Shown piece after piece: positions 2,616 through 7,979 of a stretch of 28,075 nt of DNA. The position numbers were made by a program, and so were the translations under genes. The stretch covers positions 1-28,075 of the IMG/VR virus record IMGVR_UViG_3300025652_000395; one strand, given 5' to 3'. The DNA comes from a virus. The notes beneath the pieces were generated by a model. That model saw nothing but the letters and a program-made list of their open reading frames with translations, did no database searches and was not told the DNA's origin. How positions within the stretch are numbered: the first letter of the stretch is position 1; each line of letters opens with the position of its first letter.

Positions 2616-2630
2616 AATAAATCAAAAAAG

Positions 2631-2663
2631 ATTAGGATAGTAGAAATATTATCCTTATCTTTG
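2631..2663 (+). promoter_or_regulatory. Promoter with spacer inverted repeat
   Basis: -33 TTAG about 2632-2635, -7 TATCTTTG (2656-2663). The spacer holds GGATAGTA...TATTATCC, an imperfect inverted repeat. The surrounding sequence (from AAATAAATCAAAAAAGATT) is repeated almost exactly upstream of the non-coding RNA at 3298. Confidence 0.8.
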
Positions 2664-2694
2664 TAGTGTTATTAACCAATAAAAAATATATCAC

Positions 2695-3249
2695 ATGGGA
2701 TTAGATATGTATCTTAACAAAAAAACTTATGTAAAGAATTGGGACCACAATGGTCCTAAAGAACAACACAAAATCACCGTAAAGAAAGGTGGTAAAACTT
2801 TAAAGCAGATTAAACCTGAACGTATTTCTTATATCATTGAGGAAGTTGGGTATTGGCGTAAAGCTAATCATATACACCAATGGTTTGTACAAAATTGTGC
2901 AAATGGTGTTGATAACTGTCAGGAAACTTGGGTGAACCCTGAAAAGTTAAAAGAGCTTAGAGATATTTCTCAAACGATTATAGATTATTTTGATAAGTCT
3001 GAAACAGGAGTTGAAAGAATTAAGGCAACATTTGGAGATGATTTTGATGAGATGAAGTATGACATTGATGAAAAGATATTATCAGAGTTATTGCCAACAG
3101 CAAGTGGTTTCTTTTTTGGTGGAACAGCTTACGACCATTGGTACTATCAAAATACCAAAGCTACCATTAAAATAATTGATGATGCATTTGAAGGTATTGA
3201 AGGTATTGAAGATTATGGAACTAATTTCTTTTATGAAGCAAGTTGGTAA
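2695..3249 (+). CDS. Conserved phage protein of the MGLDMYL type, 184 aa
   Basis: The N-terminus MGLDMYLNKKTYVKNW and the block EVGYWRKANHIHQWFVQNC (about 50-68) are hallmarks of a protein found in many unrelated phages; its biochemical role is not known to me. A GGTAYDHWYY block lies about 142-151, before a conserved C-terminal helix. Soluble, full-looking length. It is alone in its unit. Its stop is followed by a promoter duplicated from its own, which drives the large RNA. Confidence 0.85.
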   Translation: MGLDMYLNKKTYVKNWDHNGPKEQHKITVKKGGKTLKQIKPERISYIIEEVGYWRKANHIHQWFVQNCANGVDNCQETWVNPEKLKELRDISQTIIDYFDKSETGVERIKATFGDDFDEMKYDIDEKILSELLPTASGFFFGGTAYDHWYYQNTKATIKIIDDAFEGIEGIEDYGTNFFYEASW

Positions 3250-3265
3250 AATAAATCAAAAAAGA

Positions 3266-3297
3266 TTTGGATAATAGAAATATTATCCTTATCTTTG
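3266..3297 (+). promoter_or_regulatory. Promoter of the large RNA, with perfect spacer hairpin
   Basis: TTTG (3266-3269), 20 bases, TATCTTTG (3290-3297). GGATAATA (3269-3276) and TATTATCC (3281-3288) form a perfect 8-bp inverted repeat with a 4-base loop filling the spacer. It is a near copy of the promoter at 2631-2663, suggesting co-regulation by a protein binding the repeat. Confidence 0.8.
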
Positions 3298-3727
3298 TAG
3301 TAACAAAACAACAGGCATTAGCTTAGTAGGGAAACTGGTATTAGAGTGGTGGGGACCCGGGGAGCGATAGCGGAGCAGTAGGAAGATAAAGGACTGGTTA
3401 ATAAAGAACGATGAATAACTCTAATAAAAACATCTCAGTACCTATTAACTGGAAATTCATGACAATGCTGTATGTAGCATATTTGAAATTATAAGTTCAA
3501 TATGTGAATGGTAGTTCAACACTATCATGCCTGACAATTTAGGTAGCAACCACCTTAACCAAAGTGTTGCCGCATGAGCCATCATTCGATAGTTGGCGTG
3601 GTCTTATGGTGAGACCCTTCAGGTGCTCGTACTTTTAAGCTAGAGGCCTGTTGAAGGAGGACGTATTTCGCATGTAGACTAAGTGAGAGTCTTCCCGGTC
3701 TATATCGTTAAGACTCTCACTTTTTTT
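3298..3727 (+). ncRNA. Large structured non-coding RNA, about 425 nt, family not recognised
   Basis: No convincing reading frame, a dedicated promoter, and a strong terminator at the end. Pairings visible by eye: TATTAGAGT (3339-3347) with ACTCTAATA (3418-3426), 9 bp; CTGGTTAATA (3394-3403) with TATTAACTGG (3443-3452), which crosses the first and so would be a pseudoknot; a three-way junction with ATTCA/TGAAT (3455/3505), hairpin ATGCT/AGCAT (3465/3476) and hairpin CATATTTGAA/TTCAATATG; GGTAGT/ACTATC (3510-3526); CATGC/GCATG (3526/3572); GGTCT/AGACC near 3600; CCTTCA/TGAAGG around 3616-3657. I checked by eye for tmRNA, RNase P, group I/II intron and 6S hallmarks and saw none. Large phage RNAs such as ROOL or GOLLD are the closest concept, but I cannot assign it. 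Confidence 0.75.
3683..3727 (+). terminator. Intrinsic terminator of the large RNA
   Basis: Perfect 11-bp stem GTGAGAGTCTT (3683-3693) / AAGACTCTCAC (3710-3720) with a 16-base loop, followed by seven T. Confidence 0.95.
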
Positions 3728-3746
3728 AAATAAACCTGGTAATTTA

Positions 3747-3778
3747 TTTGCACAACTAAAAAATTACCTTTACATTTG
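3747..3778 (+). promoter_or_regulatory. Bacteroidota-type promoter
   Basis: TTTG (3747-3750), 20 bases, TACATTTG (3771-3778), then the GCATATGTTTAACCAATAAAA leader shared with 2073 and 5126. Drives the GP88-like gene at 3808. Confidence 0.85.
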
Positions 3779-3807
3779 CATATGTTTAACCAATAAAACA
3801 ATATAAA

Positions 3808-4629
3808 ATGAATTACAAAGCACCAAAAAATTTATTATCGACAAAGAATTCTAAAACCATTAAAGGTGAAAAAATGGGGTATACTACATACATTATGTAT
3901 TTGGCACCACATAAACAGAATTCTAAAGGGGTCAACTTATGTTCACATGCAAGTGAGGGTTGCGCTAAGGCGTGTCTCTTCAATTCAGGGGCTGCAAGAT
4001 TCAACCAAGTGCAAAGAGGTAAGATTAATAAAACTGAATACTTTCTAGCTGATAGAAAAGGGTTTATGCTACAGTTGTTTAATGAGCTTACCCGTATTGA
4101 AAGAATGCACAATGCAGTAGTAGGTGACGAACAAATAGGGCGTACAGGTAAAGTAGTTAGATACAAAAAGTTTGCAGTACGTTTGAATGGAACAGCGGAT
4201 ATCCCGTTTGAAAATATCAAAATTAAAGATAACAAAAATATCTTTGAATTATTTCCAAACGTACAATTTTATGATTATACCAAAAATCATAAAAGATTCG
4301 AAAATAAAGTGATTGCGCCTAACTATCATTTAACTTTTAGTAGAAGTGAAACAAACGATGCAATTAGTTTAGATATCCTAAATAGGGGCTATAATGTAGC
4401 TTATGTATTTGGAGTTAAAAAAGAACAAGACTTGCCAAGCGAATACAACGGGTTTAAGGTTGTTAATGGTGACGAAAGCGATTTACGATTCCTAGATGAA
4501 GAAAACGTCATTGTAGGGCTTAAATACAAGCTTATGACAGGCAAAGGTACAGCGGGTAAAAATAAAGATAACGTTGAAAACAACGATTTCTTAATCGATG
4601 TTTCGAAAGAAACACTAGTAACCGCTTAA
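3808..4629 (+). CDS. GP88-like phage protein, 273 aa
   Basis: Resembles the 'gene product 88' family first described in mycobacteriophages and spread through phages and plasmids. Signature seen: N-terminal NSKTIKGEKMGYTTYIMYLAPH, then the Cys/His cluster LCSHASEGCAKACLF with C45, H47, C52 and C56, then a segment around ARFNQVQRGKINKTEYF. Residues 130-230 contain β-strands, LNGTADIPFE and an NVQFYDYTKNHKRF block typical of the family. The molecular role is unknown; the cysteine cluster suggests a metal site. Own promoter and own terminator, so it is a single-gene unit immediately downstream of the large RNA. Confidence 0.8.
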   Translation: MNYKAPKNLLSTKNSKTIKGEKMGYTTYIMYLAPHKQNSKGVNLCSHASEGCAKACLFNSGAARFNQVQRGKINKTEYFLADRKGFMLQLFNELTRIERMHNAVVGDEQIGRTGKVVRYKKFAVRLNGTADIPFENIKIKDNKNIFELFPNVQFYDYTKNHKRFENKVIAPNYHLTFSRSETNDAISLDILNRGYNVAYVFGVKKEQDLPSEYNGFKVVNGDESDLRFLDEENVIVGLKYKLMTGKGTAGKNKDNVENNDFLIDVSKETLVTA

Positions 4630-7181: not shown

Positions 7182-7643
7182 ATGGGAATGAACAAATACG
7201 TGCACATAGGTCCTTATTTATTAATACCTAAGCTGCAAAAATCAGTAACCAGAACTATCCGGGTTGACGCATCCGGGAGGGAAGTAAAAGGTGGTCATAA
7301 ATTTGACCCGGTAACAGGTGAAGCCTACAAACAAGTATCAGTTACTGAAGATAAAATCAACAGGCCTCGTAGCTGGGGAGATGACGAACAATTTGAAGCT
7401 ATGGGACTGGAAGAAGATGCGTTCTTTCAGGGTGAAGGATGTGAAACCAATACACACTCAATCTTTTTAGCTAATGAACACGTATTCACTAACGATGATG
7501 AGGAACCAACTTCAATGCTGGGGCTGGATATAGAAGATGAGATGCTTAAATTTATGACTACTCATAAGAAGTATATTGATTATTATACTGAAGTATACGG
7601 ACCAGTAATCGTTGATTACGGTGTAGTTCCTTACTGGAGCTAA
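7182..7643 (+). CDS. Hypothetical protein, 153 aa
   Basis: Last gene of the plus block. MGMNKYVHIGPYLLIP suggests a short N-terminal strand; 'VDASGREVKGGHKFDPVTGEAY' is a linker-like region; residues 60-125 are acidic. The start could equally be the second ATG at 7188. Soluble; no known family. The stop is followed by the palindrome at 7647, a GC-rich hairpin and a bidirectional terminator. Confidence 0.75.
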   Translation: MGMNKYVHIGPYLLIPKLQKSVTRTIRVDASGREVKGGHKFDPVTGEAYKQVSVTEDKINRPRSWGDDEQFEAMGLEEDAFFQGEGCETNTHSIFLANEHVFTNDDEEPTSMLGLDIEDEMLKFMTTHKKYIDYYTEVYGPVIVDYGVVPYWS

Positions 7644-7646
7644 CTG

Positions 7647-7662
7647 GTACACATTTGTGTAC
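7647..7662 (+). repeat. Palindrome GTACACATTTGTGTAC, copy 1 of 4
   Basis: 7-bp arms with a 2-base centre, four bases after the stop of gene 7182. Related copies at 8238, 9703 and 10343. Confidence 0.7.
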
Positions 7663-7663
7663 A

Positions 7664-7686
7664 GCCCGGGTCCAAAACATCCGGGC
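7664..7686 (+). other. GC-rich hairpin in a convergent intergenic gap
   Basis: GCCCGG and CCGGGC form 6 bp around an 11-base loop. It has no T-tract on either strand, so it is not itself a terminator. It lies between the palindrome and the terminator at 7693. Confidence 0.5.
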
Positions 7687-7692
7687 ATAAAA

Positions 7693-7715
7693 AAAGCCTC
7701 TTAAAAAGAGGCTTT
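7693..7715. terminator. Bidirectional terminator between the plus and minus gene blocks
   Basis: AAAGCCTCTT (7693-7702) / AAGAGGCTTT (7706-7715), 10 bp with a 3-base loop, A-run on the left and T-run on the right. Serves the convergent genes ending at 7643 and 7737. Confidence 0.92.
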
Positions 7716-7736
7716 ATTGGTTTAGGAGAAAAACTA

Positions 7737-7979
7737 TTATCTAAGAACGGGCATTGTTAAATCCTTTCCTGAAGGAGATTGACCGAACATTGCACCACCA
7801 TCATTTCCTTCATCATCTTGTGAAGGGAAGATTAAAGTACCATCGGTAAACTCAATTACAACACATCTGCTGTACCATCCCATAGCTTCTGCTTCCGCTT
7901 TGGTCATGTAACGTGCTTTTCTTACTGTTTTTCCTTTTAATGCTTTGTTGGCTTCTTTAGCCCAATACTCATCTGACAT
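7737..7979 (-). CDS. Conserved small phage protein, 80 aa
   Basis: The order 'EYWAKEANKALKGKTVRKARYMT..EAEAMGW' then 'VVIEFTDGTLIFPSQDDEGNDGGAMF' recurs in short proteins of many phages; function unknown. α-helix first, then a two-strand β unit with a conserved QDDEGNDGGA turn. Start set by the leader GCATATGTTTAACCATAAAATATAAAAC and a promoter with -7 TACATTTG just upstream (complement of about 8008-8015). Confidence 0.8.
   Translation of the reverse strand: MSDEYWAKEANKALKGKTVRKARYMTKAEAEAMGWYSRCVVIEFTDGTLIFPSQDDEGNDGGAMFGQSPSGKDLTMPVLR

Follow-up and report, generated by a model that had tools for sequence, protein, structure and literature searches.

Phage morons are autonomous units that consist of a promoter, a gene and a terminator. 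Non-coding RNAs of Bacteroidota phages are, to our knowledge, poorly catalogued. The ROOL and GOLLD RNAs are encoded by phages and prophages, often near tRNA islands, and many GOLLD RNAs are longer than 800 nt (PMC12286853). The RNA unit examined here lies in a virus record of 28,075 bases (the window, meaning the whole stretch of DNA analysed). It resembles ROOL and GOLLD as a phage-encoded, stand-alone RNA of unknown function, but differs from them in being shorter (~420 nt), in matching no Rfam family and in having no supported multi-helix architecture or pseudoknot; the window also carries no tRNA gene, a weak point of difference given that the record is a fragment. With tmRNA and RNase P RNA the unit shares a length of 350-450 nt and ends that are predicted to pair together, but it has no Rfam or ARAGORN match, and its body folds at chance level whereas controls from these two families mostly lie far lower. 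It is like a moron in having its own promoter and terminator, and it lies between two genes whose homologues are neighbours in a relative, L049, but it probably encodes no protein.

The original prediction had described the region as a large structured RNA reminiscent of ROOL and GOLLD. That likeness was not sustained, with no Rfam match, a fold and pseudoknot at chance level and no tRNA in the window. The transcription unit, as read from its sequence, is convincing, and an elaborate structure is only proposed. Most likely, the region represents an orphan, independently transcribed phage ncRNA whose structure is predicted only. The features discussed below are collected in Table 1.

Table 1. 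Positions in the window of the RNA unit, its neighbours and its predicted elements
Feature	Position	Strand	Remarks
MGLDMYL gene	2695-3249	+	Upstream of RNA unit
Sister promoter copy	2616-2666	+	Ahead of MGLDMYL gene
Interval, order of elements	3250-3807	+	Promoter 3266-3297, body, terminator 3681-3727, GP88 promoter 3747-3778
Promoter block of RNA unit	3250-3300	+	49 of 51 bases identical to 2616-2666
Bacteroidota-type promoter, TTTG-N20-TATCTTTG	3266-3297	+	Supported by consensus count in window
Predicted non-coding transcript	3303-3722	+	Start inferred from -7 box; end is terminator stem; no ORF
P1, putative end-closing helix, 17 bp	3309-3316/3646-3653 and 3318-3326/3635-3643	+	Overlooked in original prediction
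P1 arms	5' arm 3309-3326; 3' arm 3635-3653	+	
Crossing helices of original prediction	3339-3452	+	Present, at chance level
27-codon ORF, MNNSNKNISVPINWKFMTMLYVAYLKL	3411-3494	+	Begins much like two ORFs, one in L035 and one in L135
Predicted run of short hairpins	3508-3528, 3528-3545, 3546-3570, 3578-3597, 3600-3616	+	
Intrinsic terminator	3681-3727	+	13-bp stem 3681-3693/3710-3722; T run 3721-3727
Separate promoter of GP88 gene	3747-3778	+	
GP88 gene	3808-4629	+	Downstream of RNA unit; PF17338, E 8e-41

The gene-free interval, the promoter consensus and its copy, the terminator and the separation from the GP88 promoter can all be read directly from the sequence. Counting only ORFs of 45 codons or more, this interval is the largest gene-free gap in the 28-kb record. 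Between promoter and terminator lies a body of ~380 bases, and a stretch of ~420 bases lacks a convincing ORF; this stretch probably gives rise to an independent non-coding RNA in a Bacteroidota phage. The GC content of the body is 42%, as compared to 33% for the genome overall, 19-20% for the promoter stretch and the stretch after the terminator, and 22-27% for three other gene-free gaps, and the RNA unit has GC-rich ends around an AT-rich middle. A long gene-free interval bearing inverted repeats could also be a DNA-level element, such as a replication origin or a recombination or packaging site, but the region is GC-rich relative to the genome and has a promoter at one end and a terminator at the other, both on the same strand, and we regard this explanation as very improbable.

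The original prediction placed a promoter directly upstream of the RNA region, and the site found there, which has a good -33 box, bears this out. Promoter sites of the form TTTG-N17-21-TANNTTTG occur 17 times in the window versus 1.8 expected, most of them with a spacer of 20 nt, and the TANNTTTG box alone occurs 101 times versus 44 expected. Also confirmed was the claim that this promoter almost duplicates the one ahead of the MGLDMYL gene; no third copy of the block was found in the window. The body behind the promoter shows no likeness to the MGLDMYL gene, the promoter alone being alike, and therefore the promoter, not the gene, would have been copied or recombined. An origin of the RNA unit as a decayed MGLDMYL duplicate is thereby rejected. 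In each copy, the spacer that separates the -33 box from the -7 box holds an inverted repeat, of 7 bp in the RNA promoter (GGATAAT-N6-ATTATCC, 3269-3288) and of 5 bp in the MGLDMYL promoter (2635-2654), and this repeat could be an operator. Co-induction or co-regulation of the RNA unit and MGLDMYL is thus a reasonable reading of the shared promoter sequence. The GP88 promoter is situated behind the terminator of the RNA unit.

At the other end, the terminator stem has a pair probability of 0.98 and the local fold a z of -7.3. A terminator closing the region had been predicted and is present, with a longer stem than the 11 bp then claimed. It is absent from the list of a simple terminator scanner, a loop of more than 8 bases being the probable reason. 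The RNA unit hence has a promoter and a terminator of its own. No terminator is seen in the sequence between the MGLDMYL stop codon and position 3298, and therefore the MGLDMYL mRNA should extend to 3722; the RNA region may double as the 3' end of that mRNA. In the same vein, the stretch could be transcribed but functionless, a chance or decayed segment that lies between a duplicated promoter and a terminator and is of use chiefly for terminating the MGLDMYL mRNA. The expected read-through, a fold at chance level and the finding of conservation nowhere would fit this, but the region has a GC content above that of other non-coding DNA, a promoter of its own with a good -33 box and the P1 helix. 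Phage genomes seldom keep 420 useless bases, which also counts against a functionless stretch, and we consider it a doubtful explanation, albeit one to be taken seriously.

The absence of a convincing gene, as originally predicted, was upheld. The longest ORF inside the RNA region has 27 aa on the + strand and 42 aa on the - strand, and stops are abundant in all six frames. Frame translations, with stops read as X, had no match in PHROG, Pfam or a tblastn search of the fetched loci, and one 38-aa stretch had none in phages, plasmids and 296 genomes. A + frame that looked like a protein-coding remnant (NKTTGISLVGKLVLEWWGPGER*RSSRKIKDWLIKNDE) matched nothing. By ORF length, stop density, and family and tblastn searches, there is consequently no coding signal, which supports a non-coding RNA unit.

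The 27-aa ORF, whose C-terminal half is hydrophobic, bears on this result. When the region is compared as a whole at the DNA level, its best matches include the start-codon regions of ORFs at L035:4082 (MNNSKEI..., 98 aa) and L135:1514 (MNNSNKE..., 71 aa), both in the same register as the 27-aa ORF, and with this likeness of start context the small ORF may be translated. The region might then be a short mRNA for a 27-aa peptide with long UTRs as the remainder, or perhaps a dual-function RNA. Against this, an ORF of 27 codons is expected by chance and has no PHROG, Pfam or tblastn match, the L035 and L135 matches stop after few codons, similar A-rich matches also occur inside genes (L038) or off gene starts (L089), and ~300 more non-coding bases would be left unexplained. 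We judge the small-peptide mRNA to be improbable. Directly behind P1, at 3654-3677 of the window, is an AAGGAGG sequence with an ATG-TAG 11 bases further on. Bacteroidota seldom have strong Shine-Dalgarno sequences (PMC9976891). Recruitment of ribosomes by the AAGGAGG at 3654 was rejected as a special feature; its pairing energy of -12.4 kcal/mol ranks 131st among 28,056 positions and is not exceptional.

The whole RNA unit folds at -113.7 kcal/mol (z -1.5), but the body without the terminator has an MFE z of -0.03 to -0.11, the level of shuffled sequence. As size-matched controls, 27 RNAs of Bacteroidota (15 tmRNAs and 12 RNase P RNAs) were folded; their z ranged from -0.2 to -4.7, mostly clearly below the RNA body. 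For windows of this phage the range was 0.7 to -5.5, and fold z is therefore neither fully sensitive nor fully specific. The many complementary segments noted originally are a chance yield, as the ranked helix energies without the terminator equal those of shuffles. The two helices of the proposed crossing pair (3339-3347/3418-3426 and 3394-3403/3443-3452) do exist, but not as a pseudoknot above chance: comparable crossing helices (one of 9 bp or more, the other of 10 bp or more, inside 120 nt) turn up in 42 of 400 shuffles (10%) and in 41 of 222 genome windows of the same size (18%), and the pseudoknot is therefore without statistical support. Nor did the three-way junction proposed at 3455-3509 hold up, its pair probabilities being just weak to moderate (0.3-0.7). 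The run of short hairpins at 3508-3616 has mean pair probabilities of 0.74-0.90.

The helix P1 begins about six bases past the inferred transcript start. Its two segments have pair probabilities of 1.0 and 0.86, and its duplex energy of -26.4 kcal/mol is matched by 1.6% of shuffles (p=0.016) and 0.5% of genome windows of the same size, evidence that is suggestive only because the test was picked after the fold was seen. P1 stands out modestly and would pair both ends of the RNA. Apart from the terminator and possibly P1, the fold of the RNA is no better than chance.

A search of Rfam returned no family, ROOL and GOLLD included, either at gathering score or in a region-restricted search to E 10. 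Under permissive settings, the terminator hairpin weakly matched ctRNA_pGA1, at 23.7 bits versus a gathering score of 45, and the only other hit was a snoRNA match attributed to chance. The Rfam covariance models of RNase P RNA and group I/II introns had no match, ARAGORN found no tmRNA or tRNA anywhere in the 28-kb window (a fragment), and no tmRNA tRNA-like domain or tag ORF was recognised by model in the RNA unit. The unit's stand-alone position in a phage, its tmRNA-like size, the predicted end-closing helix and the GC-rich ends around an AT-rich middle would fit a diverged relative of one of the known large RNAs (ROOL, GOLLD, tmRNA, RNase P, group I/II introns), but given the negative Rfam and ARAGORN results this is the least probable of the explanations weighed here. 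By the available tests, the RNA unit is outside these families.

No homologue was found in 27 related viral records searched over their full length or in ~1,180 genomes from Bacteroidota groups (samples that overlap slightly), and blastn of the region, whole and in parts, against 50,697 phage records and 72,556 plasmids gave chance matches only; such absence is not proof of uniqueness, because the records nearest the window may be left out of the collections. Exact and degenerate patterns scanned in IMG/VR gave either no match or three matches in unrelated sequence. The best sequence matches in the related viral records and the Bacteroidota genomes were A/T-rich (L091) or on coding sequence (L035, L135).

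Homologues of both flanking genes are present in just three fetched loci and are neighbours only in L049, where those of MGLDMYL (46% identity) and GP88 (54%) adjoin at a distance of ~90 bp, the RNA being absent from the gap. On this single comparison, the RNA unit may be a discrete module that is either present or absent as a whole, through insertion here or loss there. In other related loci, an ORF-free stretch (L007:4605-4915, also in L008) with a Bacteroidota-like promoter (TATATTTG) lies ~1.1-1.4 kb upstream of a GP88 relative and has an end-to-end fold, yet one no better than shuffles (z -0.2 to -0.8). In a related phage, a sequence of ~54 bp (AATCGCAATGCTCGTATTTTTGAAGTGCATACATTCACTAACGGTACAC) is repeated once in tandem, almost unchanged, where no gene is present (L004:10425-10610). 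In a 110-kb related phage record (G002; L035:8-2795), 15 tRNA-like genes form an array; one of them is called Pyl (cta) and another has an odd anticodon. In the window itself, gene orientation flips from + to - (convergent) at 7640-7740, and the GC skew changes along with it.

On balance, we favor the reading that the interval holds an "RNA moron", a non-coding unit transcribed autonomously, whose RNA would pair at its ends and act in trans. In the sequence of events that we infer, host RNA polymerase would start at ~3303 from the near copy of the MGLDMYL promoter and give a transcript of ~420 nt ending at the 3681-3722 terminator, the ends of which would probably pair via P1 into an end-closed domain. 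This RNA would act in trans and at the same stage of infection as MGLDMYL. The preferred guess for its role is that of a protein-binding RNA, a scaffold or a decoy rather than an antisense RNA, because its complementarity to phage gene starts is not above chance; an antisense RNA to the phage's own gene starts was rejected, with complementarity no better than in shuffles. Counting against a non-coding RNA unit are the body fold z of ~0 and the lack of a homologue for covariation.

That the RNA represents a new class, a stand-alone, end-closed structured Bacteroidota-phage RNA that is co-induced with MGLDMYL via a palindromic-operator promoter and is unrelated to ROOL and GOLLD, appears unlikely at present. 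The RNA unit is presently a singleton, and its value is that of a plausible orphan lead, not a new class. As a promoter-RNA-terminator unit that shares its promoter with one protein gene, it offers a concrete, testable candidate.
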